Below, piece by piece: positions 3,797 to 61,130 of a stretch of DNA of 64,000 nt. The stretch covers positions 1 to 64,000 of the IMG/VR virus record IMGVR_UViG_3300044720_000021. One strand, written 5' to 3'. The position numbers were made by a program, and so were the translations under genes. Each line of letters starts with the position of its first letter. Position 1 is the first letter of the stretch. This DNA is from a virus. Below the pieces are notes generated by a model that was not told the DNA's origin, did no database searches, and saw only the letters and a program-made list of their open reading frames with translations.

Positions 3797-5056
3797 ATGG
3801 CGCAGCCTGCACTCCCCGCTGAGGGTACATACGGCGAGATCGAACAGAATTTCATCGAGAACTCGCCGCCTGGGCTCTGGCCTGACAATCAGGACTCCAA
3901 CTTCGGTCAGCTTCGCAAGGTGCTCCTGGAACCGCTTCAGGAGTGTAGTGACAAGCTGACGGTTCTCGACTTGGAGATGTACGCAGCGACGGCTGAAATA
4001 TATCTGTCGCTGTGGGAGCAGGAGTTGAACCTGCCCATCGCACCCACAGGCAAGACTCCGCAGAACCGGCGGGACGTGATCGCATCGAAGTTGGTCTATG
4101 GGCCGTTCACGAGGACGAGACTCAATGCGCTGATCGAGTCTTTCATCGTGACGACATTCGGCTCTGCCGCTTCGCTGACGCCGGAAGGGCTCGCTCTCGA
4201 TGCTGGCGGCATCCCCCTCTTTTCAGGGGTGTCGTCGTTGGCCGATGCCTACCGAATCTACGAGGACATCAGAAACTACAGCTTCGAGCTCTGGATCAAG
4301 AGCGCCGTCACACCGGACATGTCCTCTCTGACGCGAGAGCTCACGCGGATCGTTCCGGGTGGGCACAGCTACACGATCGACAACACCAAAACCAATGTGC
4401 TCGATTACGCACGGACAGTTCGCAACAAGCAACCGAACGCGTTTTTCAGGCTCGGGCCTGACGCAAACGACACGTCGGGCTATGCAAATCACGGCACGCT
4501 CAACGGCACCCATGCTCTCGTCTCCTCTCCGGGCCTGCTCGCGCACACAGACGTGGCAGGTGCCAACGGGGCTCGGGACTTCGATGGCGCGAGCGGCTAT
4601 GTCTCGGTGCCCGACGCTCCTCAGCTTGATCTCGGTGATCACCTGACAATCGAGTTCTTGGCGCGGCCGGATGCAATCGGCGCGGTGATGCGGGTGGTGG
4701 ATAAGGGAGCGAATGCCTACTCCGTCTACATCAACGCAACAGGGGCCGTCGTGTTCGAGCAGAAGGGCGTCGGCACCATTGCTGCGTCAACGATCAACCT
4801 CGTGGCCGGCACGATCTACTACGTCGAGGTCAAGAAGTCCGGGCCTCTAGTGAAAATCCTAATCGACGACGTTGACAGAACCGGCACGGTCGTGAACAGG
4901 ACGCTGGTGGATACAGCAACGGCTCTGAACATCGGACGTAACGTCTCAGGTGGAGAGTTTTTCAACGGCGCGCTCGATGAAGTAGCTCTCTACGATCTGC
5001 GTCTGACGGCTGACGAGAGCACAAGCAACTACAAGACCGCCAAGAACATCGCCTGA
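3797..5056 (+). CDS. YmfQ-like (DUF2313) baseplate protein fused to a LamG/concanavalin-like domain
   Basis: 419 residues. The N-terminal ~200 residues follow the YmfQ/DUF2313 pattern of Mu-like baseplates (LEMYAATAEIYLSLWEQELNLPIAPTG is split here only for description), including the helical RRDVIASKLV stretch. From about residue 215 to the end there is a LamG/concanavalin-type sandwich: FRLGPDANDTSGYANHGTLN, then ARDFDGASGYVSVPD and a closing GALDEVALYDLRL. The fusion suggests a baseplate arm with a built-in glycan-binding module, perhaps for first contact with the cell wall. Confidence 0.75.
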   Translation: MAQPALPAEGTYGEIEQNFIENSPPGLWPDNQDSNFGQLRKVLLEPLQECSDKLTVLDLEMYAATAEIYLSLWEQELNLPIAPTGKTPQNRRDVIASKLVYGPFTRTRLNALIESFIVTTFGSAASLTPEGLALDAGGIPLFSGVSSLADAYRIYEDIRNYSFELWIKSAVTPDMSSLTRELTRIVPGGHSYTIDNTKTNVLDYARTVRNKQPNAFFRLGPDANDTSGYANHGTLNGTHALVSSPGLLAHTDVAGANGARDFDGASGYVSVPDAPQLDLGDHLTIEFLARPDAIGAVMRVVDKGANAYSVYINATGAVVFEQKGVGTIAASTINLVAGTIYYVEVKKSGPLVKILIDDVDRTGTVVNRTLVDTATALNIGRNVSGGEFFNGALDEVALYDLRLTADESTSNYKTAKNIA

Positions 5057-7880: not shown

Positions 7881-8096
7881 ATGGGCGGGGCACTGCTTTG
7901 GCGCAGGGTTCATGGCTGGCTGACAATCGCTTGGGCAATTCAGTTCTCTCTTGCATTCTGGATTTTCTCTGACCTACAACGAAGCGTTCCGTACTTGGTT
8001 GGCATCAGCATCGCAGCCGCGCTGCTCGGGGAAATGTCCTCGTGGCACGCAGTACGGGTCGAAGTGAAAATGGAGGAAAGGGGTGGTAGGGATTGA
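7881..8096 (+). CDS. Two-span small membrane protein
   Basis: 71 residues, ATG immediately after the previous stop. Two membrane spans (GWLTIAWAIQFSLAFWIF and LVGISIAAALLGEMS) with a charged C-terminus EVKMEERGGRD give a class II holin layout. It is the third consecutive membrane protein in the cassette, and which one is the actual holin cannot be told from sequence. Confidence 0.6.
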   Translation: MGGALLWRRVHGWLTIAWAIQFSLAFWIFSDLQRSVPYLVGISIAAALLGEMSSWHAVRVEVKMEERGGRD

Positions 8097-8098
8097 CA

Positions 8099-8136
8099 AC
8101 TAGCTACGCAGCCTGAAAGGGCGGGCTGTGCCTAGT
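8099..8136 (+). terminator. Hairpin between lysis genes
   Basis: ACTAG at 8099-8103 pairs with CTAGT at 8132-8136, with an inner CAGCC/GGCTG stem. There is no T-tract. It sits 23 bases before the GTG of the secreted lysozyme-like gene and could be a weak terminator or an RNA-processing site. Confidence 0.35.
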
Positions 8137-8158
8137 CAGCTATTAAGGAGTTTTCTAA

Positions 8159-8701
8159 GTGAAAAAACTGCTCGTACTAACCCTCGCCGCCGCCGTGCTC
8201 GGAGGCGGCGTCGGGACATCAGCAGATGCAGCAAGTGAAAACCTGAGATACCCCGACAACAACGCATGGATCAAGCTATGGACAAAACGAGATCAGAGCA
8301 TCTACTCCTCGATCAAAGTGGCCGCGAATATTTTCAGGGTCAGCGAATCGACCTTGCGTGCGGTCAACGGAGGCGAAGGAGGCAACGTCCACCCGGCCAA
8401 ACTTCGGGTGACAATCTGCAACCCGTCGGCTTACGGCGGGATCGGCTGGAACACGCAAGGCTCTGCCGCGTTTGGGCCGTTCCAGTTCATGCTCGACTAC
8501 CGAGGCGCTTGCAACCGGCAGAAAGCCTGGGGCACCTTCGGTTCATACGACGACGCGGCTTTTCAGGAAGCAAAGCGACAAGGCATCTCGGTGCCGTATC
8601 GGTTCAAGCATCCTGCGTCGAACGTCGGGCAAGCACTTACCGCCGCCTACATGATCTCACGCGGCGGGCTGTACGTCCATTGGTGCGCATCCATGTGCTA
8701 G
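8159..8701 (+). CDS. Secreted lysozyme/transglycosylase-like protein
   Basis: 180 residues from GTG 8159 with AAGGAG upstream. The N-terminus MKKLLVLTLAAAVLGGG ending in ADAAS is a clear Sec signal peptide. The mature part resembles small Rpf/lysozyme-like transglycosylases: VSESTLRAVNGGEGG with a possible catalytic Glu, then GSAAFGPFQFM, which is the typical GxxGxxQ-like substrate strand. Cysteines at VTICNP, RGACNR and the end (WCASMC) could form disulphides. Expected to act outside the membrane, either at lysis or as a superinfection-related wall enzyme. Confidence 0.65.
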   Translation: MKKLLVLTLAAAVLGGGVGTSADAASENLRYPDNNAWIKLWTKRDQSIYSSIKVAANIFRVSESTLRAVNGGEGGNVHPAKLRVTICNPSAYGGIGWNTQGSAAFGPFQFMLDYRGACNRQKAWGTFGSYDDAAFQEAKRQGISVPYRFKHPASNVGQALTAAYMISRGGLYVHWCASMC

Positions 8702-8711
8702 GAGGATGAAA

Positions 8712-8996
8712 ATGCCAACACAAAACACCTTGTCCACTCCCGACATCACACCGATCCAGAAACTCGTTGCTGCGGTCGGTGGACTGCTCGTGTCGGGAAT
8801 GCTCCTCGTCAACGCGTTCGACATCTACGACATCAGTGGAGAACAGAGCGCGGCAGTCGTCGGCTTCTGGACGACCATTGGTTCAGTCGTAGTGGTCGCA
8901 GACGCGGTGATTCGCAATGGGCGCGCTCGTGCTCTAGCCGCGAATCCTCCCGCGCAGGCCGTGGACAAGGCAGGCGAGGCAACGATCGCGGGCTGA
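8712..8996 (+). CDS. Holin-like two-span membrane protein
   Basis: 94 residues from ATG 8712; GGAGG (8701-8705) touches an earlier ATG at 8706, so the second ATG is preferred. Spans LVAAVGGLLVSGMLLVNAF and VVGFWTTIGSVVVVADAV are followed by a short polar tail. Size and topology match actinophage holins, and it is the last gene before a strong hairpin. Confidence 0.65.
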   Translation: MPTQNTLSTPDITPIQKLVAAVGGLLVSGMLLVNAFDIYDISGEQSAAVVGFWTTIGSVVVVADAVIRNGRARALAANPPAQAVDKAGEATIAG

Positions 8997-9012
8997 GAGC
9001 TCGCCACAAGGT

Positions 9013-9056
9013 CGGACGGGGCTGAACCGTGCCCGCCCTCGGGGAAGCCCCGTCCG
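9013..9056 (+). terminator. Strong hairpin after lysis cassette
   Basis: CGGACGGGGCT (9013-9023) pairs perfectly with AGCCCCGTCCG (9046-9056), 11 bp. There is no U-tract, as is common in high-GC phages. It separates the late genes from the promoter at 9095. Confidence 0.65.
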
Positions 9057-9094
9057 GCAACAACAGTAGCGTAGGAGGGCTCTCACGAGTCCGC

Positions 9095-9123
9095 TTGACG
9101 CCGGCTCAGGAGGGCGCTACAGT
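9095..9123 (+). promoter_or_regulatory. Promoter TTGACG-17-TACAGT
   Basis: TTGACG (9095-9100) and TACAGT (9118-9123) are separated by exactly 17 bases. It lies downstream of the 9013-9056 hairpin and upstream of the replication genes, and transcription would start near 9130. Confidence 0.6.
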
Positions 9124-9129
9124 CCCCGA

Positions 9130-9221
9130 TCTGAGTGACGATCAGGTGCAGGGGAGGGGCTACGGCCTCTCCCCGCTTCTTCTGATCGCGCCGCACCCGA
9201 ACCGTCAACGAAAGGATTTTC
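9130..9221 (+). promoter_or_regulatory. Structured 5' leader
   Basis: The ~90-nt leader between the promoter and ATG 9222 folds by eye into nested stems: GATCAG (about 9139) with CTGATC (about 9181), and inside it GGGGAG with CTCTCCCC. This could be a site for autoregulation of the following RNA-binding-like protein. Confidence 0.4.
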
Positions 9222-9521
9222 ATGAGCGAGCAGTTGGCAGAGAGAACTTCGCGTCGTCGCGGGGGTGAAAACAAGTCGCGCCCGAGGTCTGCTTATGACG
9301 CCGCACTGATCCAGGCAAAGATCGATGGCTCGTGCGTGGATCTCGTTCTTGCCGCTGACTTCGCGACACCCCTCGGAGGACTCCTCGACGCGGACAAGAC
9401 CATCGAGGCGAAGGTTTGTCACGTTGACACCTACGCCGTCGAGTTCGAAGTCATGGGAGCGAACGAAGGAAAAAAAGTTTGGATCAACAAAGGATTCATT
9501 GCAGGGGTGTGGGTGCGATGA
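9222..9521 (+). CDS. Putative Sm/Hfq-like small protein
   Basis: 99 residues, ATG behind AAAGGA. The N-terminal 25 residues are Arg-rich and probably disordered. The rest has an Sm-fold look: a helix SAYDAALIQAKIDG, strands VDLVLAADF and IEAKVCHVDTYAVEFEV, and a terminal KKVWINKGFIAGV. The last part parallels the Hfq Sm2 motif (VYKHAIST-like), and HVDTYAVEFE parallels the Sm1 strand. This is pattern recognition only. Overlaps the next gene by four bases. Confidence 0.45.
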   Translation: MSEQLAERTSRRRGGENKSRPRSAYDAALIQAKIDGSCVDLVLAADFATPLGGLLDADKTIEAKVCHVDTYAVEFEVMGANEGKKVWINKGFIAGVWVR

Positions 9522-11956: not shown

Positions 11957-12084
11957 CGGTCAGTGAAAAGATCCGAGGAGTTCTGATGCCTTGGCGTTGG
12001 GCTCGTCGGTGCGCGTGCCACAGCAATATTTGGCCGTGCCAATACATTGACCGACCGAATGACAATCACGGTAGCGGACGATGA
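11953..12084 (+). CDS. Very small Cys/Trp-rich protein
   Basis: 43 residues from GTG 11953, with four-base overlaps on both sides (GTGA and ATGA). The sequence contains MPWRWARRCACHSN and a later Cys, a possible metal knuckle. Supported mainly by perfect junction overlaps with both neighbours. Confidence 0.4.
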   Translation: MTVSEKIRGVLMPWRWARRCACHSNIWPCQYIDRPNDNHGSGR

Positions 12085-13127
12085 TCTACCGAGGGCGGGA
12101 TCTCAATGCTGTCGCGCTGTGGGAGCAGTGGTGCGACTTTCCTCCGAATTTCACCGGGGATGGTGGTGGCTTCTCACCGCTGGTCATCTGCCCCAACCCA
12201 GAGCACAACACAGACAAGCGACATTTTCAGGTCAACCTGGACAAGCCGCTTGTTCACTGCTTTGCATCATGCGGAATTTCAGGGACATACGAGCGGGCCA
12301 TCTCGATCATCACAGGATGCTCAGAACGAGAGGCCCGTAAGGAGCTCCTGAAACACGCTCGCGTCGGCCTCGGCCCGAGGTCAAAGCGAAAAGGACGCAC
12401 GCCGGACGGACAAGTCAAGAGGTTGCAGGATGAAATTCCAGCACCCTCGCTCGACTATGAGCGGTACATACCGCAAGCCGGCATGAATTACCTTTCTGCC
12501 CGAGGGGTCGGGGCCGACGAGATCGTGAAGTGGGAGATCGGATGGGATCCTGCCGAGAGACGGATTGTCATTCCGGCCCACGATGACAGGGGGATCGTCC
12601 GGTTCTTGATCAAGCGGGCAGTGAGCCCGAAGGACTTCCCCAAGTACCTCTACTGGCCCGAAAAAGCCCTCTGTGGGTGGGGAAAGACAGATATTCTCTA
12701 CGGTGCTTGCAGATTCGACCTGAAGCGCGTATCATCTTTTGGGCTCGTGCTCGTGGAGGGGAGCCTAGACACGGCGAGGATCGATTCCTTCGGTTTTCCG
12801 GCAGGAGGGATCCTGGGAACAGGGCTCAGTGAAAAGCAGAGAGGAGTGATCAATAGAACTAGACCCAAGCGGATTTTCCTTATGTTCGACAAGGACGCGG
12901 CGGGCGTCCAGAACATCTGGAAGGCAGAGGCGATGCTTCCAAAGCTACCGCTGTTCGTCTGCTTGTATCCCAAAGGAAAATCCGATCCTCAAGAATTGAC
13001 CCAAGAGGAGGCGGAATACTCCATTGAAAATGCACTGTCGTTGGTCAGATTCAAACGAAGGCTCCCGAAACGTCAAGCGAGAAGGAAGGTGACGCATGGC
13101 ACAGCCCACAGTCAGACGCGTTCGTAG
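12081..13127 (+). CDS. DNA primase (DnaG-type, zinc and TOPRIM)
   Basis: 348 residues. A zinc-binding N-terminus has Cys in LVICPNPEHNTD and Cys pairs in VHCFASCG. The TOPRIM core shows VLVEGSLDTARIDSFGF (catalytic Glu) and IFLMFDKDAAGVQN (DxD-type acidic pair). It makes RNA primers for lagging-strand synthesis beside the DnaB-like helicase. The last 32 bases overlap the ssDNA-binding gene, and the Arg/Lys-rich tail may contact the helicase. Confidence 0.85.
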   Translation: MIYRGRDLNAVALWEQWCDFPPNFTGDGGGFSPLVICPNPEHNTDKRHFQVNLDKPLVHCFASCGISGTYERAISIITGCSEREARKELLKHARVGLGPRSKRKGRTPDGQVKRLQDEIPAPSLDYERYIPQAGMNYLSARGVGADEIVKWEIGWDPAERRIVIPAHDDRGIVRFLIKRAVSPKDFPKYLYWPEKALCGWGKTDILYGACRFDLKRVSSFGLVLVEGSLDTARIDSFGFPAGGILGTGLSEKQRGVINRTRPKRIFLMFDKDAAGVQNIWKAEAMLPKLPLFVCLYPKGKSDPQELTQEEAEYSIENALSLVRFKRRLPKRQARRKVTHGTAHSQTRS

Positions 13128-14349
13128 CGTCGAAGATCGAAACGCCGGTCGTGGTCAGTTCATCACGCTGAAACAGACGAACGATCAGTTCGTTGGGTTC
13201 GCGCTTTTCAAGCCCGACCCCGAGCTCGATGACAACCCCGGCTATTTCGAATACTTCGAGCACTACACGCCAGCCACGGGGTACTTCCCGTGCATCGGAG
13301 ACGACTGCCCTCTCTGCGCGGAGGGTGACAATCCTTCCACGCGGGCAAAGACTCTCTGGCTGGTGCCGAACGACAACAAGGAAATGGATGCCGACGACGC
13401 GATCGTGAAGGTTTTCACGATGAACTGGTCGGTGATCCAGGAGTTCGCAGATCTTCATGCGGACGACGAGACGATCCTCAGTCGCGCGTTCCGCATCAAG
13501 CGGCTCGAAGGGAATGGGAAGTATGCGGTGCGTCCCAAGCCTGAAAAGCTGAAGGCTCCGCAGGTCAAGGCCGCGTTGAAGGACGCACCGGATCTCGAAC
13601 AGCTTGCGACCAAGCAGGCCGCTCGCGTGATGGAAGATCTCGACACGGCCGAGGCGATGGAGGCCGACGAGGACAAGGCCGAGGAGAAGGCCACGGCGAA
13701 GCAGTCGTCCACGTCCAAGGCGAAGAAGGGCAAGCCCGCAGAGGAGCCGGAGCCCGAGACGGGTGAGGACTTCGACCCGGAGGAGGCCAAGGAGTTCGCC
13801 GGGGAAGTCACGGTGAAAAAGCTGAACAAGTCCAAGCTGATCCTCACCGTCGAGACAGGGGACGTGTCGTTCGACGTGTACCTGATCGAAGGCGGCGACT
13901 TCGACATCGAGGACTACAACAAGGACGACACGCTGTATATCGAGGCTGCGAAGGACGAGGATGGCGATTTCATCGCCAGCGTGGTCACGAATGCAGAGGA
14001 GCCTGCCGAGGAGCCCGAGCCCGGTGACGAAGGTGACGAACCCGAACTGTTCGAGGGAGACGACTTCGACGGCAAGGTGACGGTCGTGTCGGTCAACTCG
14101 GAGAACGACACGCTCACGGTGAAAACCGAGGACGACAAGACGTTCGAGCTCTACTTCCTCGGTGAAGGAGAGGACGAGGACGGGAACGACTGGTCGAACC
14201 TCGATCTCGATGACTTCTCGGAGGACGAGGAGATTGTCGTCGTTGCGGAAAGGGACGGTGAGGGCGACATGCTCGCGTCCAAGTTTCCCGCGAAGGCGAA
14301 GGGCAAGAAGGCAGCAGCCGGCGCGAAGAAAGCGTCCGGTCGCAAGTAG
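13096..14349 (+). CDS. Single-stranded DNA-binding protein, gp32-like with long acidic tail
   Basis: 417 residues. The first ~150 residues look like a phage SSB core with a zinc knuckle PCIGDDCPLCAEGDN. The rest is built of very acidic linkers (EEPEPETGEDFDPEEA, EEPEPGDEGDEPE) around two similar beta domains beginning FAGEVTVKKLNKS and FDGKVTVVSVNSE, then a basic Lys/Ala tail. The two internal repeats are unusual for gp32-type SSBs. Position between primase and polymerase supports the call. Confidence 0.65.
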   Translation: MAQPTVRRVRSVEDRNAGRGQFITLKQTNDQFVGFALFKPDPELDDNPGYFEYFEHYTPATGYFPCIGDDCPLCAEGDNPSTRAKTLWLVPNDNKEMDADDAIVKVFTMNWSVIQEFADLHADDETILSRAFRIKRLEGNGKYAVRPKPEKLKAPQVKAALKDAPDLEQLATKQAARVMEDLDTAEAMEADEDKAEEKATAKQSSTSKAKKGKPAEEPEPETGEDFDPEEAKEFAGEVTVKKLNKSKLILTVETGDVSFDVYLIEGGDFDIEDYNKDDTLYIEAAKDEDGDFIASVVTNAEEPAEEPEPGDEGDEPELFEGDDFDGKVTVVSVNSENDTLTVKTEDDKTFELYFLGEGEDEDGNDWSNLDLDDFSEDEEIVVVAERDGEGDMLASKFPAKAKGKKAAAGAKKASGRK

Positions 14350-14370
14350 AGAACTACCCCGGTGTGGCTT

Positions 14371-14402
14371 CTGCGGGCTTCGAAACCACTTCAAGCCCGC
14401 AG
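14371..14402 (+). terminator. Hairpin terminator after SSB gene
   Basis: CTGCGGGCTT (14371-14380) pairs with AAGCCCGCAG (14393-14402), extended outward by GGTGTGG with CCACC. No T-tract. Confidence 0.6.
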
Positions 14403-14436
14403 ACCACCCGGTCAATCGATAGAGGGGAGAATGAAA

Positions 14437-15384
14437 ATGACCAAGAGGATCAGCACCATCATCTCAGCACTGATCGCAGCGATCGTTGTTGCCACCATTG
14501 CGTCCGCAGGCGCTCCGCAGTCGGCCAACCGGCCGCTCGGTGTCAGCGGGAACGTGATCACAGCCTGCGTCGAGTCGAGCAGCGCGAAGATCAGCAAGGA
14601 GTCGCGTGGCGACCTGAAGCTGCGCAATTGCCAGCCTGGGTTCACCAAGCTGTCATGGAACAAGGTCGGCCCGAAGGGCGCGGCTGGACAGAACGGTGCC
14701 GCAGGCCCGCAGGGCGTGCAGGGATTGTCAGGCGCACAGGGTGCAACTGGCCCGCAGGGTGCTCAGGGTGGCGCAGGCCCGAAGGGTGAAAAGGGCGATA
14801 CAGGTGCTACCGGCCCGCAGGGGCCAGCAGGCCCGCAGGGAGAGGCCGGCGCACCCGCACCGACTCTGCTTCGGCTCAGTGGTGACTTCGCAGGAACGAA
14901 TGCGACTGTCGCTACGTCGCTCGACGGCGTGCAGTTCGGCCCGTACCCCGATGGCGGACAGTGGGGCGGCTCGGTCGCTTACAACGGACTCAATGGGCAC
15001 ACGCTCAGTGAGATCACGCAGTTGTCCTACACGGTCAAGCACTCGTCTCTCGATGACAGTGCGATCTCGTCGCCGTACCTGCGGATTTTCCTCGTAGGTG
15101 ACAACGACGTGCTGTTCGACGCGACCGAGTGTGCCACCGTCGTGCCGACAGAGGACGAGTTCCACACCTACGAGGTCACCACGGCTGAAAAGCTGCGCTA
15201 CAGTGATGACCCATGCGGTGCCGAGTACGATCCGCAGACGTGGGAGGAGATCGTTGCAGCCCACGGTGAGGAGATCATCGACGGCATCTACGTGACGACG
15301 GGATTTGCTGGCGGTGCTCCGCTCGCGGCGATCCTTCGCTCGCTGAAGGTGAACGGAACCGACTTCGTGTTCGGGGCCGCGTAG
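14437..15384 (+). CDS. Secreted collagen-like protein
   Basis: 315 residues from ATG 14437, with AGAGGGGAG at good spacing; ATG 14431 would be too close. An N-terminal signal peptide ([20 protein letters not shown]) is followed by a domain with two Cys, then ~20 collagen triplets ([16 protein letters not shown] and on), which should form a trimeric triple helix. The C-terminal ~165 residues form a beta-rich domain with Cys at ECATVV and DPCGAEY. It lies isolated between two hairpins in the replication region, so it may be expressed separately and act outside the cell. Confidence 0.75.
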
Positions 15385-15394
15385 GATTGTCAGT

Positions 15395-15470
15395 TCGGGG
15401 GAGGGCCACGTCGAAGCGCTAGCGCGTGGAGGTCAGGGTGATCACCTTGATCTAACTGGCCCTCCCCCGA
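15395..15470 (+). terminator. Large structured element / terminator
   Basis: A perfect 14-bp stem, TCGGGGGAGGGCCA (15395-15408) with TGGCCCTCCCCCGA (15457-15470), encloses two further hairpins: CCACG...CGTGG and AGGTCAGG...CTTGATCT. This makes a three-way junction. It separates the collagen gene from the HU-like gene. Confidence 0.55.
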
Positions 15471-15498
15471 TTCAAACCCAACGAAAGGGCGGGTGAAA

Positions 15499-15966
15499 AT
15501 GGAGACAGTGACACAGGCACAGCTTCTCAGAGGCACGCTCGACATCATGGAGGACGATCTTCGGATCACGTCGAAGCAGGCGAATGACTTCGTGTCGTCG
15601 TTGCGTGCGGTAGTCGAGGAGCAGGTGGAGTTCGGGAACAAGGTCAACCTGCTTGGGCTCGGTATTTTCACTCCGGTTGGCGTTCTTGCCAAGCCGAAGC
15701 GGAAAGGCGTCAAGCCGCAGACTGGCGAGGAAGTTGTCTACCCGGCGAAGCCCGCGTCCGTGAAGCTGAAGTTCGGCATCGCCAAGCGCGTCAGGGAGGC
15801 TCTGCCGGCCACGACGAGTAGCGCAGGCAAGTCTCTCCTCTCTACGGCCAAGCAGCGGGCAGAGGCAGCCGCAGAGCGTCGGGCAAAGCGCGAGGAGGAG
15901 GAAGCCAAGGCGGCACGCAAGGCCGAGCGCGATGCGAAGAAGGCGGCGGGCGGGAAGAAGAAGTGA
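15499..15966 (+). CDS. HU/IHF-like DNA-binding protein with basic tail
   Basis: 155 residues from ATG 15499, behind AAAGGGCGGG. Residues ~1-95 follow the HU/IHF fold: helices with LLRGTLDIMEDDLRITSKQ and FVSSLRAVVEEQVEFG, the turn NKVNLLGLGIFTPVG, and the arm region ending in VKLKFGIAKRVREALP. The C-terminal ~50 residues are Lys/Ala/Glu-rich, like actinobacterial HupB extensions. A genome-bending or condensing role is likely. A candidate reader of the dispersed short motifs in this genome, though HU is usually non-specific. Confidence 0.75.
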   Translation: METVTQAQLLRGTLDIMEDDLRITSKQANDFVSSLRAVVEEQVEFGNKVNLLGLGIFTPVGVLAKPKRKGVKPQTGEEVVYPAKPASVKLKFGIAKRVREALPATTSSAGKSLLSTAKQRAEAAAERRAKREEEEAKAARKAERDAKKAAGGKKK

Positions 15967-16217
15967 GCGTCCACGACGCCAACTACCGCAAGCTGAAGAA
16001 GGAGCTCGGGATCCCCGAGGACGAGCCCATTTTCATTCTTCGTGCGAAAGACAGGCTGGCGTTGCCAGTCATCACTCGATACACGAACTCGGCTCGTCAG
16101 ATCGAGAGCGCAAAGGTGCGTCCGTCTGACGAGTGGTTCGAGCAGATGGGTGAGGTCGAGCGTCAGTTCGCAGACTTCGCAAGTGCCCATCCATCGCAAA
16201 TGAAAATCCCCGACTAG
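15963..16217 (+). CDS. Hypothetical protein
   Basis: 84 residues from GTG 15963 (GTGA overlap with the HU-like stop). Starts with SVHDANYRKLKKELGIPEDEP; mixed helix and strand; no motif recognised. Likely coupled to the HU-like gene. Confidence 0.5.
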   Translation: MSVHDANYRKLKKELGIPEDEPIFILRAKDRLALPVITRYTNSARQIESAKVRPSDEWFEQMGEVERQFADFASAHPSQMKIPD

Positions 16218-16229
16218 AAAGAGGCACGA

Positions 16230-16538
16230 ATGAGTTGGAGCGTAAGCAAGAACGGGATTGCCGAGCCGCATGACATCATGGACGCCGTTGGCGCTCAGTT
16301 CAAAGAGACGTACCCGGAGCCAGCCGAGGGCGTCGATGATCAGGCTCGCGCAGCGGCAGGCGTAGCGCAGGATCTCGCGTTCGAGGCGTTCGATGGTGAA
16401 GGCCCGTTCAACGTGCAGATGTCCGGCCATGTGAAAAACGAGGACTCGGACTCGTTTGTCTCGGTCATCGTCACGAAGGTCACAGAAGCCGAATCGGACG
16501 AGACGGCAGACGCACCTGCCGAAGCAGCGACGGTCTAA
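16230..16538 (+). CDS. Hypothetical protein
   Basis: 102 residues, ATG behind GAAAGAGG. A C-terminal strand pair (FNVQMSGHVKNEDSDSF and VSVIVTKV) precedes an acidic Ala-rich tail. Similar small proteins of unknown function are frequent near phage replication genes. Followed by a terminator. Confidence 0.5.
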   Translation: MSWSVSKNGIAEPHDIMDAVGAQFKETYPEPAEGVDDQARAAAGVAQDLAFEAFDGEGPFNVQMSGHVKNEDSDSFVSVIVTKVTEAESDETADAPAEAATV

Positions 16539-54181: not shown

Positions 54182-54556
54182 ATGGGTAACAAGATCAGCG
54201 ATGGCAAGGCCATCGATGTGCAGGCACCCGGCGCAACCGTCATCAACGATGGCGACATGTACCGGATCTCCGGGTTCACCGGGTTTGCAATCGGCAAGAA
54301 GGACGGCGTTCAGACCGATCTCGGGATGGCTCTCGAAGTCGATACGAATGCCGTGTGGTCGGTCAAGCTGCCCGCAGCACTGAACCCCGCCGTGGGGACG
54401 AACCTGAAGTGGTCTGCCGGCGCAGGCTTCAAGAAGGGCGACACCGACTTGATCGCTGGCGGTGCGCTCGAAACCGGAGTCTGCAAGGTCGTCGCAGTGA
54501 AAAATGCCGCTGGCTACGCGCAGGTTCGCCTGACGGGCCAGATCCCCGAGGTCTAA
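54182..54556 (+). CDS. Capsid decoration protein, DUF2190-like
   Basis: 124 residues, ATG 54182. GNKISDGKAIDVQAPGATVI, DMYRISGFTGFAIGK, LEVDTNAVWSVKLP and VVAVKNAAGYAQVRLTGQ match the DUF2190 family of small beta-barrel head-stabilising proteins usually placed just before the major capsid gene. Confidence 0.7.
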   Translation: MGNKISDGKAIDVQAPGATVINDGDMYRISGFTGFAIGKKDGVQTDLGMALEVDTNAVWSVKLPAALNPAVGTNLKWSAGAGFKKGDTDLIAGGALETGVCKVVAVKNAAGYAQVRLTGQIPEV

Positions 54557-54590: not shown

Positions 54591-55652
54591 ATGCAGCCTT
54601 ACTGGCAGACCCTCGACAAGTCCTCCGCGCTGAAAGCGTGGCGGACAGCGATCAACGAGGGTGATCTTCGCCGCGAGCTCCTGATCTCGGAGATGATCTG
54701 CGAGATGGTGGACGTGGAGAACGGCGGGATCCAGAACATCGAATGGGGCTCAGAGGACGCGGTGAACATCGCAGAGATGATCAACACGTCCCAGGGCTCG
54801 ATGGATCTGCTCGAAAAGGTGCGGGTGGACGTGGCCTTCGGGCTCGCTGAAATTCCGCTTCTCTACGGGCCGATCTACGAGCGGGTCGATGGCCCGTTCC
54901 CCGGCGGCGTGTTTCAGATCGATGAAAACACGTTGCAGGCCGATGTCGTTTTCCTCGAAAAGTTCGAGGGAGGCGAGGTTCAGTTCGGAACGCTCCGCAA
55001 GGGAGCTCCGTCGCTCGGGAAGATCCAGACCTACGCGGCTGGATTCGAGTGGACGGAGGACATGGTGGAGTTCGATCAGACGTGGAGCATCACGCTTCAC
55101 AACCGCGCCTTCGGGCGTGCGTACAACGCTCTGATCAACCATCTCCACCTGTCTCCGATCATCGGCTTCACCTACGGCGCAGGGAACTCGTCAGCCGCCG
55201 TGACCACCGGAGCAACGCTTCAGGAGGACACGCACCTGACGTTCCAGGCGGCGTACAAGGAGACGGTGATGGCTGCTCCGCAGCGCAGGGGCTCCGTGCT
55301 GCTCGCGTCCGAGTCGGATCGCTTCCAGATCGAGGAAGCGCTTCTGACCCCAGTGCGGGACGTGCAGGGCAACTCGCTGCCGACCATCCCCATCGACACC
55401 ATCATCTACTACGACGGCGAGACGTTGCAGCGCGGCTCGGACGTTTTCACCTATCCGGGTGTGACGCCGGGAACCGCGTTCATGATCTTCCCGAAGCAGA
55501 AGATGAAGGAGATGCTGCATCACGATCTCCGCATCGACATCGGCCCTGCCGACATCTCTCGGTTGGTCGAAGGTCAGCAGGTTGGTCGGGCTCGGCGCGG
55601 TCTGTACGCAGACATCGCCGGGAGCGTCGAGAAGATCACGCTGCCGACCTAA
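54591..55652 (+). CDS. Major capsid protein
   Basis: 353 residues, ATG behind AAGGGAG. HK97-fold character: N-terminal helix KSSALKAWRTAINEGDLRRE, E-loop-like RVDGPFPGGVFQ, P-domain around WTEDMVEFDQTWSITLHNRA, and C-terminal VGRARRGLYADIAGSVEKI. Position after scaffold and decoration proteins is canonical. Confidence 0.85.
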   Translation: MQPYWQTLDKSSALKAWRTAINEGDLRRELLISEMICEMVDVENGGIQNIEWGSEDAVNIAEMINTSQGSMDLLEKVRVDVAFGLAEIPLLYGPIYERVDGPFPGGVFQIDENTLQADVVFLEKFEGGEVQFGTLRKGAPSLGKIQTYAAGFEWTEDMVEFDQTWSITLHNRAFGRAYNALINHLHLSPIIGFTYGAGNSSAAVTTGATLQEDTHLTFQAAYKETVMAAPQRRGSVLLASESDRFQIEEALLTPVRDVQGNSLPTIPIDTIIYYDGETLQRGSDVFTYPGVTPGTAFMIFPKQKMKEMLHHDLRIDIGPADISRLVEGQQVGRARRGLYADIAGSVEKITLPT

Positions 55653-57145: not shown

Positions 57146-57349
57146 TTGGCGCAAGTGACACCCAAGAACGTGAACGACTTCATTGCATTGGCAGGAGCAT
57201 GTCCCCTGTCGGTCTATACCGATGACGGCGGGACGTACACCGTCGCAGGTTGCCCCTTCGACGCGATCCTGTCCAATGTGTCGCAGGCTGACTTCGATGA
57301 AATTCTGCTTGCGCTGCCCGGCATCATGGAGGTCGAGCGGATCGCATGA
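57146..57349 (+). CDS. Small head-region protein, paralogue B
   Basis: 67 residues from TTG 57146 (AGGAGGAACC upstream). CPLSVYTDDGGTYTVAG then DAILSNVSQADFDEILLAL parallels paralogue A in order and spacing. Overlaps the next gene by four bases. Confidence 0.55.
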   Translation: MAQVTPKNVNDFIALAGACPLSVYTDDGGTYTVAGCPFDAILSNVSQADFDEILLALPGIMEVERIA

Positions 57350-57888
57350 AAATCGAGGACGGCATCATCCTGGATCCGATCACCGGCAAGCCGCGTGACT
57401 CACTCGATCATATCGAGGAGATGCTGTCGCTCTCTGAAAAGTATCCCTGGCTTGTAGGGACGACGACGACCCGCCGCTACCTCTGTACCCCGGCGGCGGC
57501 GGCGGGTCTGACGTACACGATGAACGCGACCGCTTGGAACGCGGCGAGCACTTGGACGCAGATTGTCGCGTCAGGTGGCATCGGAGATCCCTACTACATC
57601 ACGGGCTTTACCTGCCAGTACCACAACACGCCGACGATCACGGTGGACACGACCCTTCAGGTCGAGATGCAGATTGCGACCGGCGCAGCGGCGTCAGAAG
57701 TGATGAAAATTCAGTATCCGTTCAGCGTGCGCGTGGACTCCGCAGTTGGACACCATCCTGTACTCAGCTTCGATCTTCCCGAGCCCTTCACTGTCACCGG
57801 CAACCCCCGACTTGCCTTCCGCATGTTGTCCTCGATGGCTGTGGCAACCGTGTGGCAGGGCATCAAGTTCAAGTATCAGATCACATGA
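57346..57888 (+). CDS. Beta-sandwich protein paralogous to the next gene's second domain
   Basis: 180 residues, ATG 57346. The strand-rich body (TLQVEMQIATGAAASEVMKI, then FDLPEPFTVTGNPRLAFRML) matches the domain at about residues 225-350 of the 850-residue protein downstream. Possibly a fibre or decoration head domain. Confidence 0.55.
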   Translation: MKIEDGIILDPITGKPRDSLDHIEEMLSLSEKYPWLVGTTTTRRYLCTPAAAAGLTYTMNATAWNAASTWTQIVASGGIGDPYYITGFTCQYHNTPTITVDTTLQVEMQIATGAAASEVMKIQYPFSVRVDSAVGHHPVLSFDLPEPFTVTGNPRLAFRMLSSMAVATVWQGIKFKYQIT

Positions 57889-60437
57889 GTGCCTACGGAC
57901 TGAAAAGCGCGTTCACAGGTGCGGAGACTCCTCTGTCCGAGGGTGGCAATTGGGACGGTGTTGGTGATGGCACTGGAACAGGTCAGTACGTTTTCTTGGA
58001 CATCGGGATCTTCGTTGCGTCTGACAACTCGATGATCAAGAACGCCGACAAGGCCAGGGCTGTAGCAGTTGCAGGAACGCAAGGGTATGCAGCTTGGACA
58101 CCTGAATCTTTGGACATGACAAAACGAGTGAAAATCGGCGCTGACTTGACAGGATACGCGGGTGCCAACACTGCAAGCACTGATCAGGTTGGCATTTTCA
58201 TTCTGGGGTCGAGCGGCAGTGTCTCTGACGGGTACGGAGTCACAATTCGCGACAACGGAACCACGGGTGCGGCCTACTTCGCCTGTCTGCGCAAGCTGAC
58301 TGGATCATCGACTTTTGGGAACCTTGGCGAGTTTTCACTCGGTGCAACCGCGACTGCCTTTGTCGAGCTAGAGATTTATGGCGATTACGTGATCATGTAC
58401 GTCAATGGCGTTGAGCGTGTGCGCTGGCGCGACGATGACTACAGGTACGCGACTGCATACGGCGTGATCGCAGCATCCTGCGATCCTCTTAGTGGTGCAA
58501 CATTTTCAACGGTTGACAACTTCAACCTTGGCACTCTTGCTGACATCACTGAGGAGAGGCACATCTCTTTGCCTGGTGGCCAAAGCGGCTTCGCGACCGT
58601 GGCAGCAGGTGCAAGCGCGTGGGCGAATACCGCCTGGGTAGAGCTCGTAGGCAGCCACCCATTCGGGTTGGCGCTTGAGCGAGTTGACTTCTATCCCCAG
58701 GTGGCAAGTGCAACCTATCTCGTGAACACAACTTACGAGATGGAGATTGTCATTGGTATCGGTGCTCCCGGTTCAGAAGTTGAGAAGGTTGTCATCCCCT
58801 GCTCTTGGAGAATCAACGATCGCACCGGCCATTGCGAGATTACGTTGCCTCCGAACCTCCCTGAGCCGTATGAAATTCCGGCTTTTACCAGGGTGGCTGT
58901 GAGAACGAGACAAAGCGTTGCGTCTGCTCCGGGGATCCAGGCGCTCAAGGGAATGTTCAAGGAAGTTGTCCCGGCAGGAGTCGTGACTACTCCGCTCACC
59001 CTCGCAGCAACGTTGGTGCTGACTCCTCTCGTCGCCCGACAGATGAAGCCGCTTCCCAAGGCAGTGACGCTGACGTTGACGCCGGCCGTGTCGAGGCGAG
59101 TCTACGTGCCTGAAAATGTGGCAGCCAGTCTGACTGCTCAGGTGAGCCAAGTGAAAAAAAGCCTTGTGCCTCTCAGCGCCAGCATTCCTCTCGTGCCGGC
59201 GCAGATCAGGAAACGACTGATCCCCCTCAGTGGTGGGCTCACGGACGTGGGCGCGGTCGTGCGGAAGATGTACGTGGCCGAGGCAGCCTCTCTGCCGCTT
59301 GCGAACGCACTGGCCAAGAAGGTCAGCCGTCAGGAAAGTGCCAGCCTCAGCACGTCACCTGTCATGCTTTTCACCAAGACGGCTCCGCGATCGTTGGCGG
59401 CGAGTCTCGCTCTGACAAGCAACGTGGCCATGCGCCGTACCGGACTGATCGCACTTGGTGCTGGCCTTCCGCTGATTATCACCGAGGCAGACATCGTGCA
59501 GCACTACCTCACGCTCAACGGTGGGCTCGTGGTCACACCTGCGCTTGTGAAGGAGCCCTCGCGCACAATGGCGGCGAACCTGATCGAGACGGCGGCGCTC
59601 GCGAAGAAGGTCAGTCGGCTGATGGCGCTGACAGTCTCGATGAATCCAGCAATGACAATCAGAAAAACTGCTCCTCGGTCATTGGCTGCGAACTTGCCTC
59701 TGGCGGCAGACATGATCAGATTGAAACTGCCGACAGCCATTCCACTTGCCGCAGGATTGTCATTGGCTTCCGCAATCACGAAAGAGCCCTCTCGTCAGCT
59801 TGCGATCACGCTGGCGCTCGCGGCAGAGCTCAACAAAGAGCCCTCGCGGACGATGGCGACAGGACTGCCGCTGACAACTGCTTTGTTGCGTGAAAAGCAG
59901 TTGCTTCTTGTGGCCCTTCTGCCGATGGGGCAGAACATGACCTTCCTCAAATTGGCCGGATTGTTCCCAATCTCTCTCAGCGCGTCTCTCGTGCTCGTTC
60001 CTACGCTGGCGAAGGTCAAGACTGCCCCGAGGCAGTTGAGCAGCACTGTGGCGCTCTCAGCGGCGCTGACGCGGTTGCTGTGGCGGGACATGGCAGCAGG
60101 GATTCCGCTCGACGCGGCGATCCTTCGGGAGTTCGACAAGACGATGGCTGTCAATCTTCAGCTTTTCAATGAGTTGGCGTTCCAGAGACTCGGCGGCGAG
60201 ATCGCGATGGACGTGACTCTCAATCTGACCGCAACCTTGCTCGAACTGATACAGCGTTTCCGCGATGGACTGATCAGCAGTGGATTGTCACCTGCGGTCT
60301 TGCTCGCAGCAGGCGCGGAACCGGCAACGCTGTTCGGCTCTGCCCCGAGCGAGGGTAGTCTGCACGAGGTACACGAGGAAGTTCCTGAGTTGTCCATCAA
60401 GCCCGTCTCCATTCCGCACATCACAGAGGTCAGGTGA
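57885..60437 (+). CDS. Large repeat protein, candidate head fibre or tail whisker
   Basis: 850 residues from ATG 57885 (ATGA overlap). Residues ~1-220: LamG/concanavalin-like sandwich (VELEIYGDYVIMYVNGVERV). Residues ~225-350: second sandwich, paralogous to the previous gene. Residues ~365-800: about twenty imperfect repeats of 18-24 residues, with the form A-x-L-x-L-x3-L-x-K-x-PSRxLA (e.g. KEPSRTMAANLIETAALAKK). The last ~50 residues are acidic. The repeats alternate a hydrophobic strand and a basic turn, as in an elongated beta or amphipathic rod. Probably a virion surface fibre; no family recognised. Confidence 0.6.
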   Translation: MSAYGLKSAFTGAETPLSEGGNWDGVGDGTGTGQYVFLDIGIFVASDNSMIKNADKARAVAVAGTQGYAAWTPESLDMTKRVKIGADLTGYAGANTASTDQVGIFILGSSGSVSDGYGVTIRDNGTTGAAYFACLRKLTGSSTFGNLGEFSLGATATAFVELEIYGDYVIMYVNGVERVRWRDDDYRYATAYGVIAASCDPLSGATFSTVDNFNLGTLADITEERHISLPGGQSGFATVAAGASAWANTAWVELVGSHPFGLALERVDFYPQVASATYLVNTTYEMEIVIGIGAPGSEVEKVVIPCSWRINDRTGHCEITLPPNLPEPYEIPAFTRVAVRTRQSVASAPGIQALKGMFKEVVPAGVVTTPLTLAATLVLTPLVARQMKPLPKAVTLTLTPAVSRRVYVPENVAASLTAQVSQVKKSLVPLSASIPLVPAQIRKRLIPLSGGLTDVGAVVRKMYVAEAASLPLANALAKKVSRQESASLSTSPVMLFTKTAPRSLAASLALTSNVAMRRTGLIALGAGLPLIITEADIVQHYLTLNGGLVVTPALVKEPSRTMAANLIETAALAKKVSRLMALTVSMNPAMTIRKTAPRSLAANLPLAADMIRLKLPTAIPLAAGLSLASAITKEPSRQLAITLALAAELNKEPSRTMATGLPLTTALLREKQLLLVALLPMGQNMTFLKLAGLFPISLSASLVLVPTLAKVKTAPRQLSSTVALSAALTRLLWRDMAAGIPLDAAILREFDKTMAVNLQLFNELAFQRLGGEIAMDVTLNLTATLLELIQRFRDGLISSGLSPAVLLAAGAEPATLFGSAPSEGSLHEVHEEVPELSIKPVSIPHITEVR

Positions 60438-60440
60438 AAA

Positions 60441-61130
60441 ATGGCATCAGCACGTCTTGACTTTGTACCGCCTCCTGAACCTGACATCGTTGCGCTTCGG
60501 ATCTATGAAGCTGCGACACAGGACGGTGTGTATGCGCAGATCGAACGAACCACAGCGGTCGGCACGGCACCCGACTGGATCAGCTACTACACGACCGACG
60601 ATGCAGCTTCGGCAACAGGGTGGTTCAGGATTGCCTGGGAGACGACCGGGGGAGTCGTCGGGCCATTTTCACCGCCAGTGCAAGGGGGAACTTCCTCACT
60701 TATCTCGAAAGTGGTCGCGCGGGTGATGCAGCGCAACGTGAACTTGGACGAGGCTTTGGTCTACCAGTCGGCGCAGTACGTCATCGCCACGTTCCTCAAC
60801 ACTGAAAACCCGGATGATCCTGCGTTGACTGTCACGATCAAGGAGCTCGAAGGGCTCACGCTCCTGACGTTGGCCCGAGCCTCGATGCAGACGGTGATGC
60901 AAGGTGGACAGAGTGAGTCCTTCACTGCCGGCCTCGTCAGCATGAAAAGCGAAACAAAGGTGGGGGATCTGCGCGACCTGATCAAGTACCTCACCGACGA
61001 AGCCGCTCTCTTGCTCGGGATCACGAACGTCTACATCATGCTCTTGGAGGACATCGACCCGACAGGGATCGGCAGCATCTCTGCGATCGATTACGACCAG
61101 TCCCGCCTCTTGATGACGGAGATCCCGTAG
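60441..61130 (+). CDS. Head-tail adaptor (Fn3-like N-terminus)
   Basis: 229 residues, ATG 60441. A short Fn3-like domain (PPPEPDIVALRIYEAATQDG) precedes a helical connector part (RVMQRNVNLDEALVYQSAQY, LTLLTLARASMQTVM, GDLRDLIKYLTDEAALLLG). Sits between fibre and closure genes in the usual adaptor place. Confidence 0.55.
   Translation: MASARLDFVPPPEPDIVALRIYEAATQDGVYAQIERTTAVGTAPDWISYYTTDDAASATGWFRIAWETTGGVVGPFSPPVQGGTSSLISKVVARVMQRNVNLDEALVYQSAQYVIATFLNTENPDDPALTVTIKELEGLTLLTLARASMQTVMQGGQSESFTAGLVSMKSETKVGDLRDLIKYLTDEAALLLGITNVYIMLLEDIDPTGIGSISAIDYDQSRLLMTEIP

Follow-up and report, generated by a model that had tools for sequence, protein, structure and literature searches.

Lactococcal phages bear a neck-associated assembly, the neck passage structure (NPS), which according to excerpts of two reports may carry carbohydrate-binding modules and may aid adsorption (PMC9863714; PMC6669499). 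The collar and whiskers (fibritin) of the contractile-tailed phage T4 are described, again in excerpt, as trimeric neck fibres that serve as environmental sensors (PMC9863714). On the head, the long flexible fibres of phages 7-7-1 and phiCbK are credited in part of one article with first host contact, the capsid fibre of 7-7-1 being present once per vertex and having a structure that its authors call unknown (PMC12796354), while the head fibres of phi29, made of supercoiled helix-turn-helix repeats according to the title of a work cited in two articles (PMC12796354; PMC9863714), are thought to boost adsorption (PMC9863714).

The protein analysed here, P0001, has 850 residues and is encoded at 57885..60437 in a 64,000-nucleotide stretch of viral DNA (the window hereafter; IMG/VR record IMGVR_UViG_3300044720_000021); P0001, its parts and its two neighbouring genes lie on the plus strand. 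We propose that it is a neck or head fibre, on the basis of its open reading frame and of its syntenic position. It may resemble the NPS as a neck-associated protein that assists adsorption. LamG exceeds the Pfam cut-off in two of the ten relatives scanned at the same genomic position (L003, 51.6 bits; L050, 79.4 bits), but no carbohydrate-binding or lectin-like domain was recognised in P0001 itself with Pfam, PHROGs or NCBIfam. The NPS belongs to lactococcal siphoviruses, and no sequence match between it and P0001 was found. We know of no exchangeable shaft of 20-residue repeats in the NPS. Fibritin is a coiled coil and the phi29 fibre repeats are helical, whereas the repeats of P0001 are strand-like by sequence pattern. 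To the capsid fibres of 7-7-1 and phiCbK it may be likened as a long fibre predicted to meet the host early.

Two further systems resemble the repeats themselves. The triple beta-spiral of the adenovirus shaft is built of 15-residue units, each a strand with a Pro/Gly turn, in variable number. P0001 resembles it in its short repeats, a strand-like pattern with a Pro/Gly turn and a variable number, but the unit of its repeat family (type A) has 18 or 20 residues. The phase of the hydrophobics with respect to the proline differs as well: in P0001's type they fall at even offsets before and after it. This misfit makes a canonical triple beta-spiral less likely. Curli (CsgA) also has degenerate repeats of near 20 residues in variable number, as given in excerpts of PMC10192328; P0001 differs in having no Gln-x10-Gln ladder (judged by eye) and no Pfam curlin match at E 0.1 or better. 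In titles and abstract openings of the open-licence literature we found no description of a comparable genomic slot or repeat.

A repeat protein between capsid and sheath genes

The P0001 gene sits in a head and neck structural cluster, downstream of the capsid gene (54591-55652; Phage_capsid_4, E 3.9e-9; phrog_3116, E 1.3e-81) and upstream of a conserved gene (60441..61130) that is followed by the sheath cluster, so that the position between head and connector genes given in the initial annotation holds. Its start overlaps the stop of a 180-residue gene (57346..57888) by four bases, ATGA, and three bases separate its own stop from the ATG of the conserved gene. The 229-residue product of the latter, which has 29 homologues in 76 capsid loci, is probably a head-tail adaptor with an FN3-like N-terminus, a role suggested by its position; it matches phrog_31 weakly (E 0.005), and as a single-protein query it retrieved nothing from viral contigs. 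Elsewhere in the window, the gene at 14362-15384 has collagen-like tail-fibre PHROG matches (phrog_5073, E 5.9e-20) and lies amid genes of replication and well away from those of the baseplate, and the gene at 3797-5056 is baseplate-wedge-like (phrog_203, E 1.2e-6), its C-terminal part matching virion structural families that are also matched by the LamG of L050.

P0001 had been described as starting with two beta-sandwich domains. Its N-terminal region (residues 1-215; 57885..58529) has no family match; a ConA-like nature, considered for residues 1-222, was set aside as unproven, as hhalign against the ConA-like domains of relatives gave a probability of 1%. The following domain (residues 221-360; 58545..58964) is a genuine unit, because it recurs as a separate gene directly upstream: the C-terminal part of the 180-residue product is a paralogue of residues 221-359 (33% identity over about 221-360, E 2.3e-13, tblastn within the same genome). 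A beta-sandwich fold is unconfirmed for either part.

The statement that the repeats belong to no recognisable family agrees with our searches. Neither Pfam nor NCBIfam gave a match for P0001 at E 0.1 or better, its best matches in PHROGs and among PDB sequences were phrog_7273 (E 0.093) and 5d0y (E 0.074), and none reached E 0.01 among 50,697 phage records (INPHARED). The whole protein also found no relatives in viral contigs. In the BLAST searches for relatives, here and below, the low-complexity filter may mask repeat matches.

The repeat array itself (residues 367-790; 58983..60254) is clearly detectable. BLOSUM self-comparison peaks at lag 18, a peak matched by 0 of 200 shuffles. With a 20-column repeat HMM built from the units of five relatives only, P0001 being left out, P0001 reaches 12.9 bits, whereas none of 100 copies in which the array was shuffled exceeds 4.2; the same HMM finds 8 units at 3 bits or more, as against at most 1 in array-shuffled copies. 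Segmentation by hand gives 22 units of 17-22 residues, so the original count of about twenty degenerate repeats stands and the lengths quoted with it, 18-24 residues, were slightly long. The basic PSR turn that was singled out is present three times, as one among several turns (APR 3, VSR 3), and the array as a whole has 44 Lys+Arg and 21 Asp+Glu.

In the other type-A proteins (those of L036, L041, L050, L062 and L063) the unit has the consensus R-T-L-A-A/V-T-L/V-T-L/F-T-P-A/T-M/L-T-R-x5, with hydrophobic residues at positions 3, 5, 7, 9 and 13 alternating with Thr/Ser/Ala and basic residues at positions 15 and 1. Unit spacing in these five relatives is even in 109 of 112 cases (23 of 18, 75 of 20 and 11 others), although not all of these are independent, since recent block duplication shares some of the evenness by descent; in L062 the series 20-20-20-18 recurs. 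P0001 is less strict, its own spacing being even in 9 of 13 cases and odd in 4. Steps of two residues preserve the in/out alternation of a beta strand, and the type-A unit is therefore most simply read from its sequence as one long strand plus a basic turn, the quantised length (18 or 20) being what an extended strand would need. AlphaFold2 models were too poor for use, both for P0001 (10-row alignment, pLDDT 33.4) and for an eight-unit stretch of the L062 protein (15 rows, pLDDT 41.8), and lend no support to any fold of the shaft, known or new.

Exchange of shafts in a conserved slot

A search with the capsid gene yielded 76 viral loci and a second scan 14 more (L103-L116). As a possible pointer to the host, one capsid relative, L088 (83%), is on a contig from an Acidobacteria bin, although this contig could be a viral stray in that bin. 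Homologues of the genes starting at 60441, 61131, 61672 and 62250 and of the sheath gene are conserved downstream in the capsid loci, and we defined the slot as the stretch from the capsid gene to the homologue of the 60441..61130 gene, both on one contig. With duplicates removed (L008, of L007; L058, of L057), there are 31 complete slots, window included. A long periodic open reading frame (at least 230 residues, with a period whose z exceeds 4 and which 0 of 200 shuffles reached) occupies 26 of the 31; that of L037 falls just under the cut (z 4.0, 0 of 200 shuffles), and the remaining four (L009, L046, L054, L056) have no open reading frame of at least 230 residues. The period of the main slot gene is 17-24 residues, mostly 18 or 20, with L030 (14) as the sole exception, and the longest product, in L041, has 2,205 residues. 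In many relatives the distance from the slot gene to the downstream conserved gene is near zero. In L103 the slot has two adjoining genes whose repeats are alike in kind (12084-14159, 691 residues; 14159-16288, 709 residues), and in some loci a gene for a collagen-like GPP protein separates the repeat gene from the adaptor-like one (L041, 13887-14540; L042, 12959-13528). Used as queries, the slot proteins of L050 and L062 found only LamG domains or themselves, while tblastn against the 50,697 phage records gave no match for the 60441..61130 gene or for L005 and L027, and for L043 only its ConA-like piece, in four records.

The repeats in the slot fall into at least eight sequence types without cross-match, scattered over the capsid tree. 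The types were sorted by eye and, for type A only, checked by HMM: six members score 12.9 bits or more, and no other slot protein with a reported score exceeds 3.6. On a capsid tree of 21 rows carrying eight labels, 12 type changes are needed (minimum possible 7), against a mean of 13.5 for shuffled labels, and a number as low was reached in 23 of 200 shuffles. On the tree of the downstream gene, 10 changes are needed, a number to which 0 of 200 shuffles (mean 13.6) came down. L041 and L043 are close on both trees and differ in shaft type, and the nearest relatives of the window by path (L088, L003, L005) have type C where the window has type A. Capsid phylogeny and shaft type thus disagree, and shafts have been exchanged between relatives. 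As the types cluster somewhat on the downstream-gene tree, this exchange is not free, linkage to the neighbouring gene being somewhat closer.

This bears on the suggestion that length variation by repeat number tunes the reach of the fibre. Repeat number does vary, the profile detecting between 15 and 32 units per protein among the six of type A (P0001 included), but whole shafts are also swapped for unrelated repeats, and length tuning alone is therefore an insufficient explanation.

Two candidate ends

The C-terminal tail of P0001 (residues 791-850; 60255..60434) has a hydrophobic ladder (small or polar, any, hydrophobic, and so on to Ala/Ser/Gly) that is common to slot proteins of all repeat types. 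Three or more copies of the ladder are present in 21 of 21 tails, after inspection of which the pattern was drawn, and in 6.5% of 491 other genes of the same loci, with mean copy numbers of 4.0 in tails, 1.0 in other genes and 1.7 in shuffled tails. Among six held-out repeat proteins (L014, L016 of 424 residues, L029, L042, L103 of 709 residues, and L110), four reach three copies and two have two. This set leaves out L017, L023 and L024 (tails of 1, 3 and 1 copies; period not tested), the collagen-like L038 (4 copies) and the upstream repeat protein of L103 (691 residues, 2 copies). That the ladder is common to the slot proteins hints at the C-terminus as the end used for attachment or assembly within this capsid group.

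The N-terminal modules, on the other hand, differ among slot proteins. Beside the LamG domains, a domain named ConA-like by eye is present in the proteins of L041, L043, L063 and L088, and in other loci, L062 and L006 among them, it has a small gene to itself. The duplicated domain of P0001 is found by blastp in only L057/L058 among the slot proteins of the capsid group. Short N-terminal motifs recur as well: one resembling MARxGRxxPxxP in repeat proteins that are unrelated in other respects (the slot proteins of L050, L063, L014 and L110 and the protein encoded from 7994 in L096), and a start resembling GIFDPEL or WFDPEL in L005, L062, L030 and L016. These motifs are possible anchors.

A scan found the duplicated domain in other phages too (L094-L102), eight further loci of which were read. 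In L094, L096, L098, L099, L100 and L101 a stand-alone copy is followed immediately by a gene that starts with another copy. This second gene runs into a repeat array in L094, L098, L099 and L100, but not in L101; L096 has its array one gene further on. The coat protein is P22-like in L094 (PF11651, E 5.5e-52) and Phage_capsid_4 in L100, and the plan of P0001 is thus not confined to one capsid lineage. The tandem pair in these phages would point to the N-terminal domain as the attached end instead. The L096 array gene (7994-9292, 432 residues), which adjoins the gene starting with the duplicated domain, has units of about 14 residues (TQTITGKARITAT); 14-residue units of another spelling (TTSDNRSARTKGVA) are found in L094 (6425-8968) and L099 (6425-9169), which have a common C-terminal cap and are preceded by the stand-alone domain gene.

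Proposed role and competing explanations

We give an even chance to P0001 being a fibre on the virion of a phage with a contractile tail. Neck or head would be its likeliest place, judging from the position of its gene, and such a fibre would probably help the virus find or hold its host. The head fibre or neck whisker first proposed is partly supported, by the fixed slot in 31 loci, the long strand-like repeat shaft, the LamG domains of relatives and a length that varies down to absence. We infer virion location, oligomer, buried and exposed sides, attached end and adsorption role as follows. Residues 1-360 would form a globular part and the 22 repeats an elongated beta shaft, each unit contributing one long strand in which buried hydrophobics alternate with exposed Thr/Ser, and the C-terminal ladder would serve the slot proteins in common for docking or assembly. 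Ahead of baseplate binding, such a fibre might touch the cell surface, or what surrounds the cell, in a reversible and accessory way. In such an accessory role the gene could be lost, and its shaft and N-terminal domains swapped, while slot, ladder and unit length were kept.

Receptor-binding proteins are typically hypervariable and have lectin-like N-terminal domains, and location need not follow gene order, so P0001 could be a receptor-binding fibre of the tail or baseplate whose gene is merely placed in the neck cluster. We hold this to be distinctly unlikely: genes for a baseplate wedge, a tail protein and a collagen-like fibre lie elsewhere in the window, and P0001 therefore need not be the main receptor-binding protein, which, being essential, could not be missing from four of 31 slots unless replaced elsewhere. 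Another possibility, that P0001 is the minor extended copy of a many-copy capsid decoration protein akin to the small upstream domain, would make the N-terminal domain and not the C-terminal tail the anchor. The stand-alone copy directly upstream favours it, as does the occurrence of the same tandem pair near the capsid genes of the unrelated phages L094 and L100; most slot proteins of the capsid group nevertheless have no such domain, and a decoration-like gene is already present at 54182 (phrog_122, E 7e-4), which makes this reading unlikely.

That P0001 is not a virion protein at all, and is for example secreted or acts on the host from within the cell, is very improbable, as the gene is inside the head-tail cluster and tightly packed against both neighbours, in many relatives as well on the downstream side; for it speaks the dispensability of the slot genes. 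The fold of the shaft is a separate question, compatible with a neck or head fibre. A monomeric beta-solenoid of the curli or tailspike kind, instead of an intertwined oligomer, would also fit a repeat that is degenerate, some 20 residues long and alternating in its hydrophobics, with one coil per unit, and curlin repeats average 23 residues in the excerpts of PMC10192328. Curlin homologues are modelled with a mean pLDDT of 83 in the same source, as against 33 and 42 here, a difference that is not decisive given our shallow alignments (10 and 15 rows); P0001 also has no curlin family match, and we regard the solenoid as doubtful.

Returning to the neck or head fibre, we tentatively suggest, at somewhat less than even confidence, that a single fibre architecture with a near-fixed unit of 18-20 residues (changing by two at a time in the type of the window) is filled in one slot by at least eight repeat families unrelated in sequence. 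With the C-terminal ladder kept, its shafts would be swapped, or made anew by tandem duplication, more quickly than the capsids diverge. The same plan beside P22-like and other capsids would then represent a general kind of phage fibre that has no name yet, with the spelling of the shaft free or under diversifying selection and backbone spacing alone constrained. If so, many unannotated low-complexity proteins of uncultured phages would be recognisable as fibres by slot, period and tail, and not by sequence; they would form a set, provided by nature, of beta shafts that can replace one another and share a unit of length, and phages of soil bacteria would bear an accessory organ of adhesion with a quicker turnover than the capsid.
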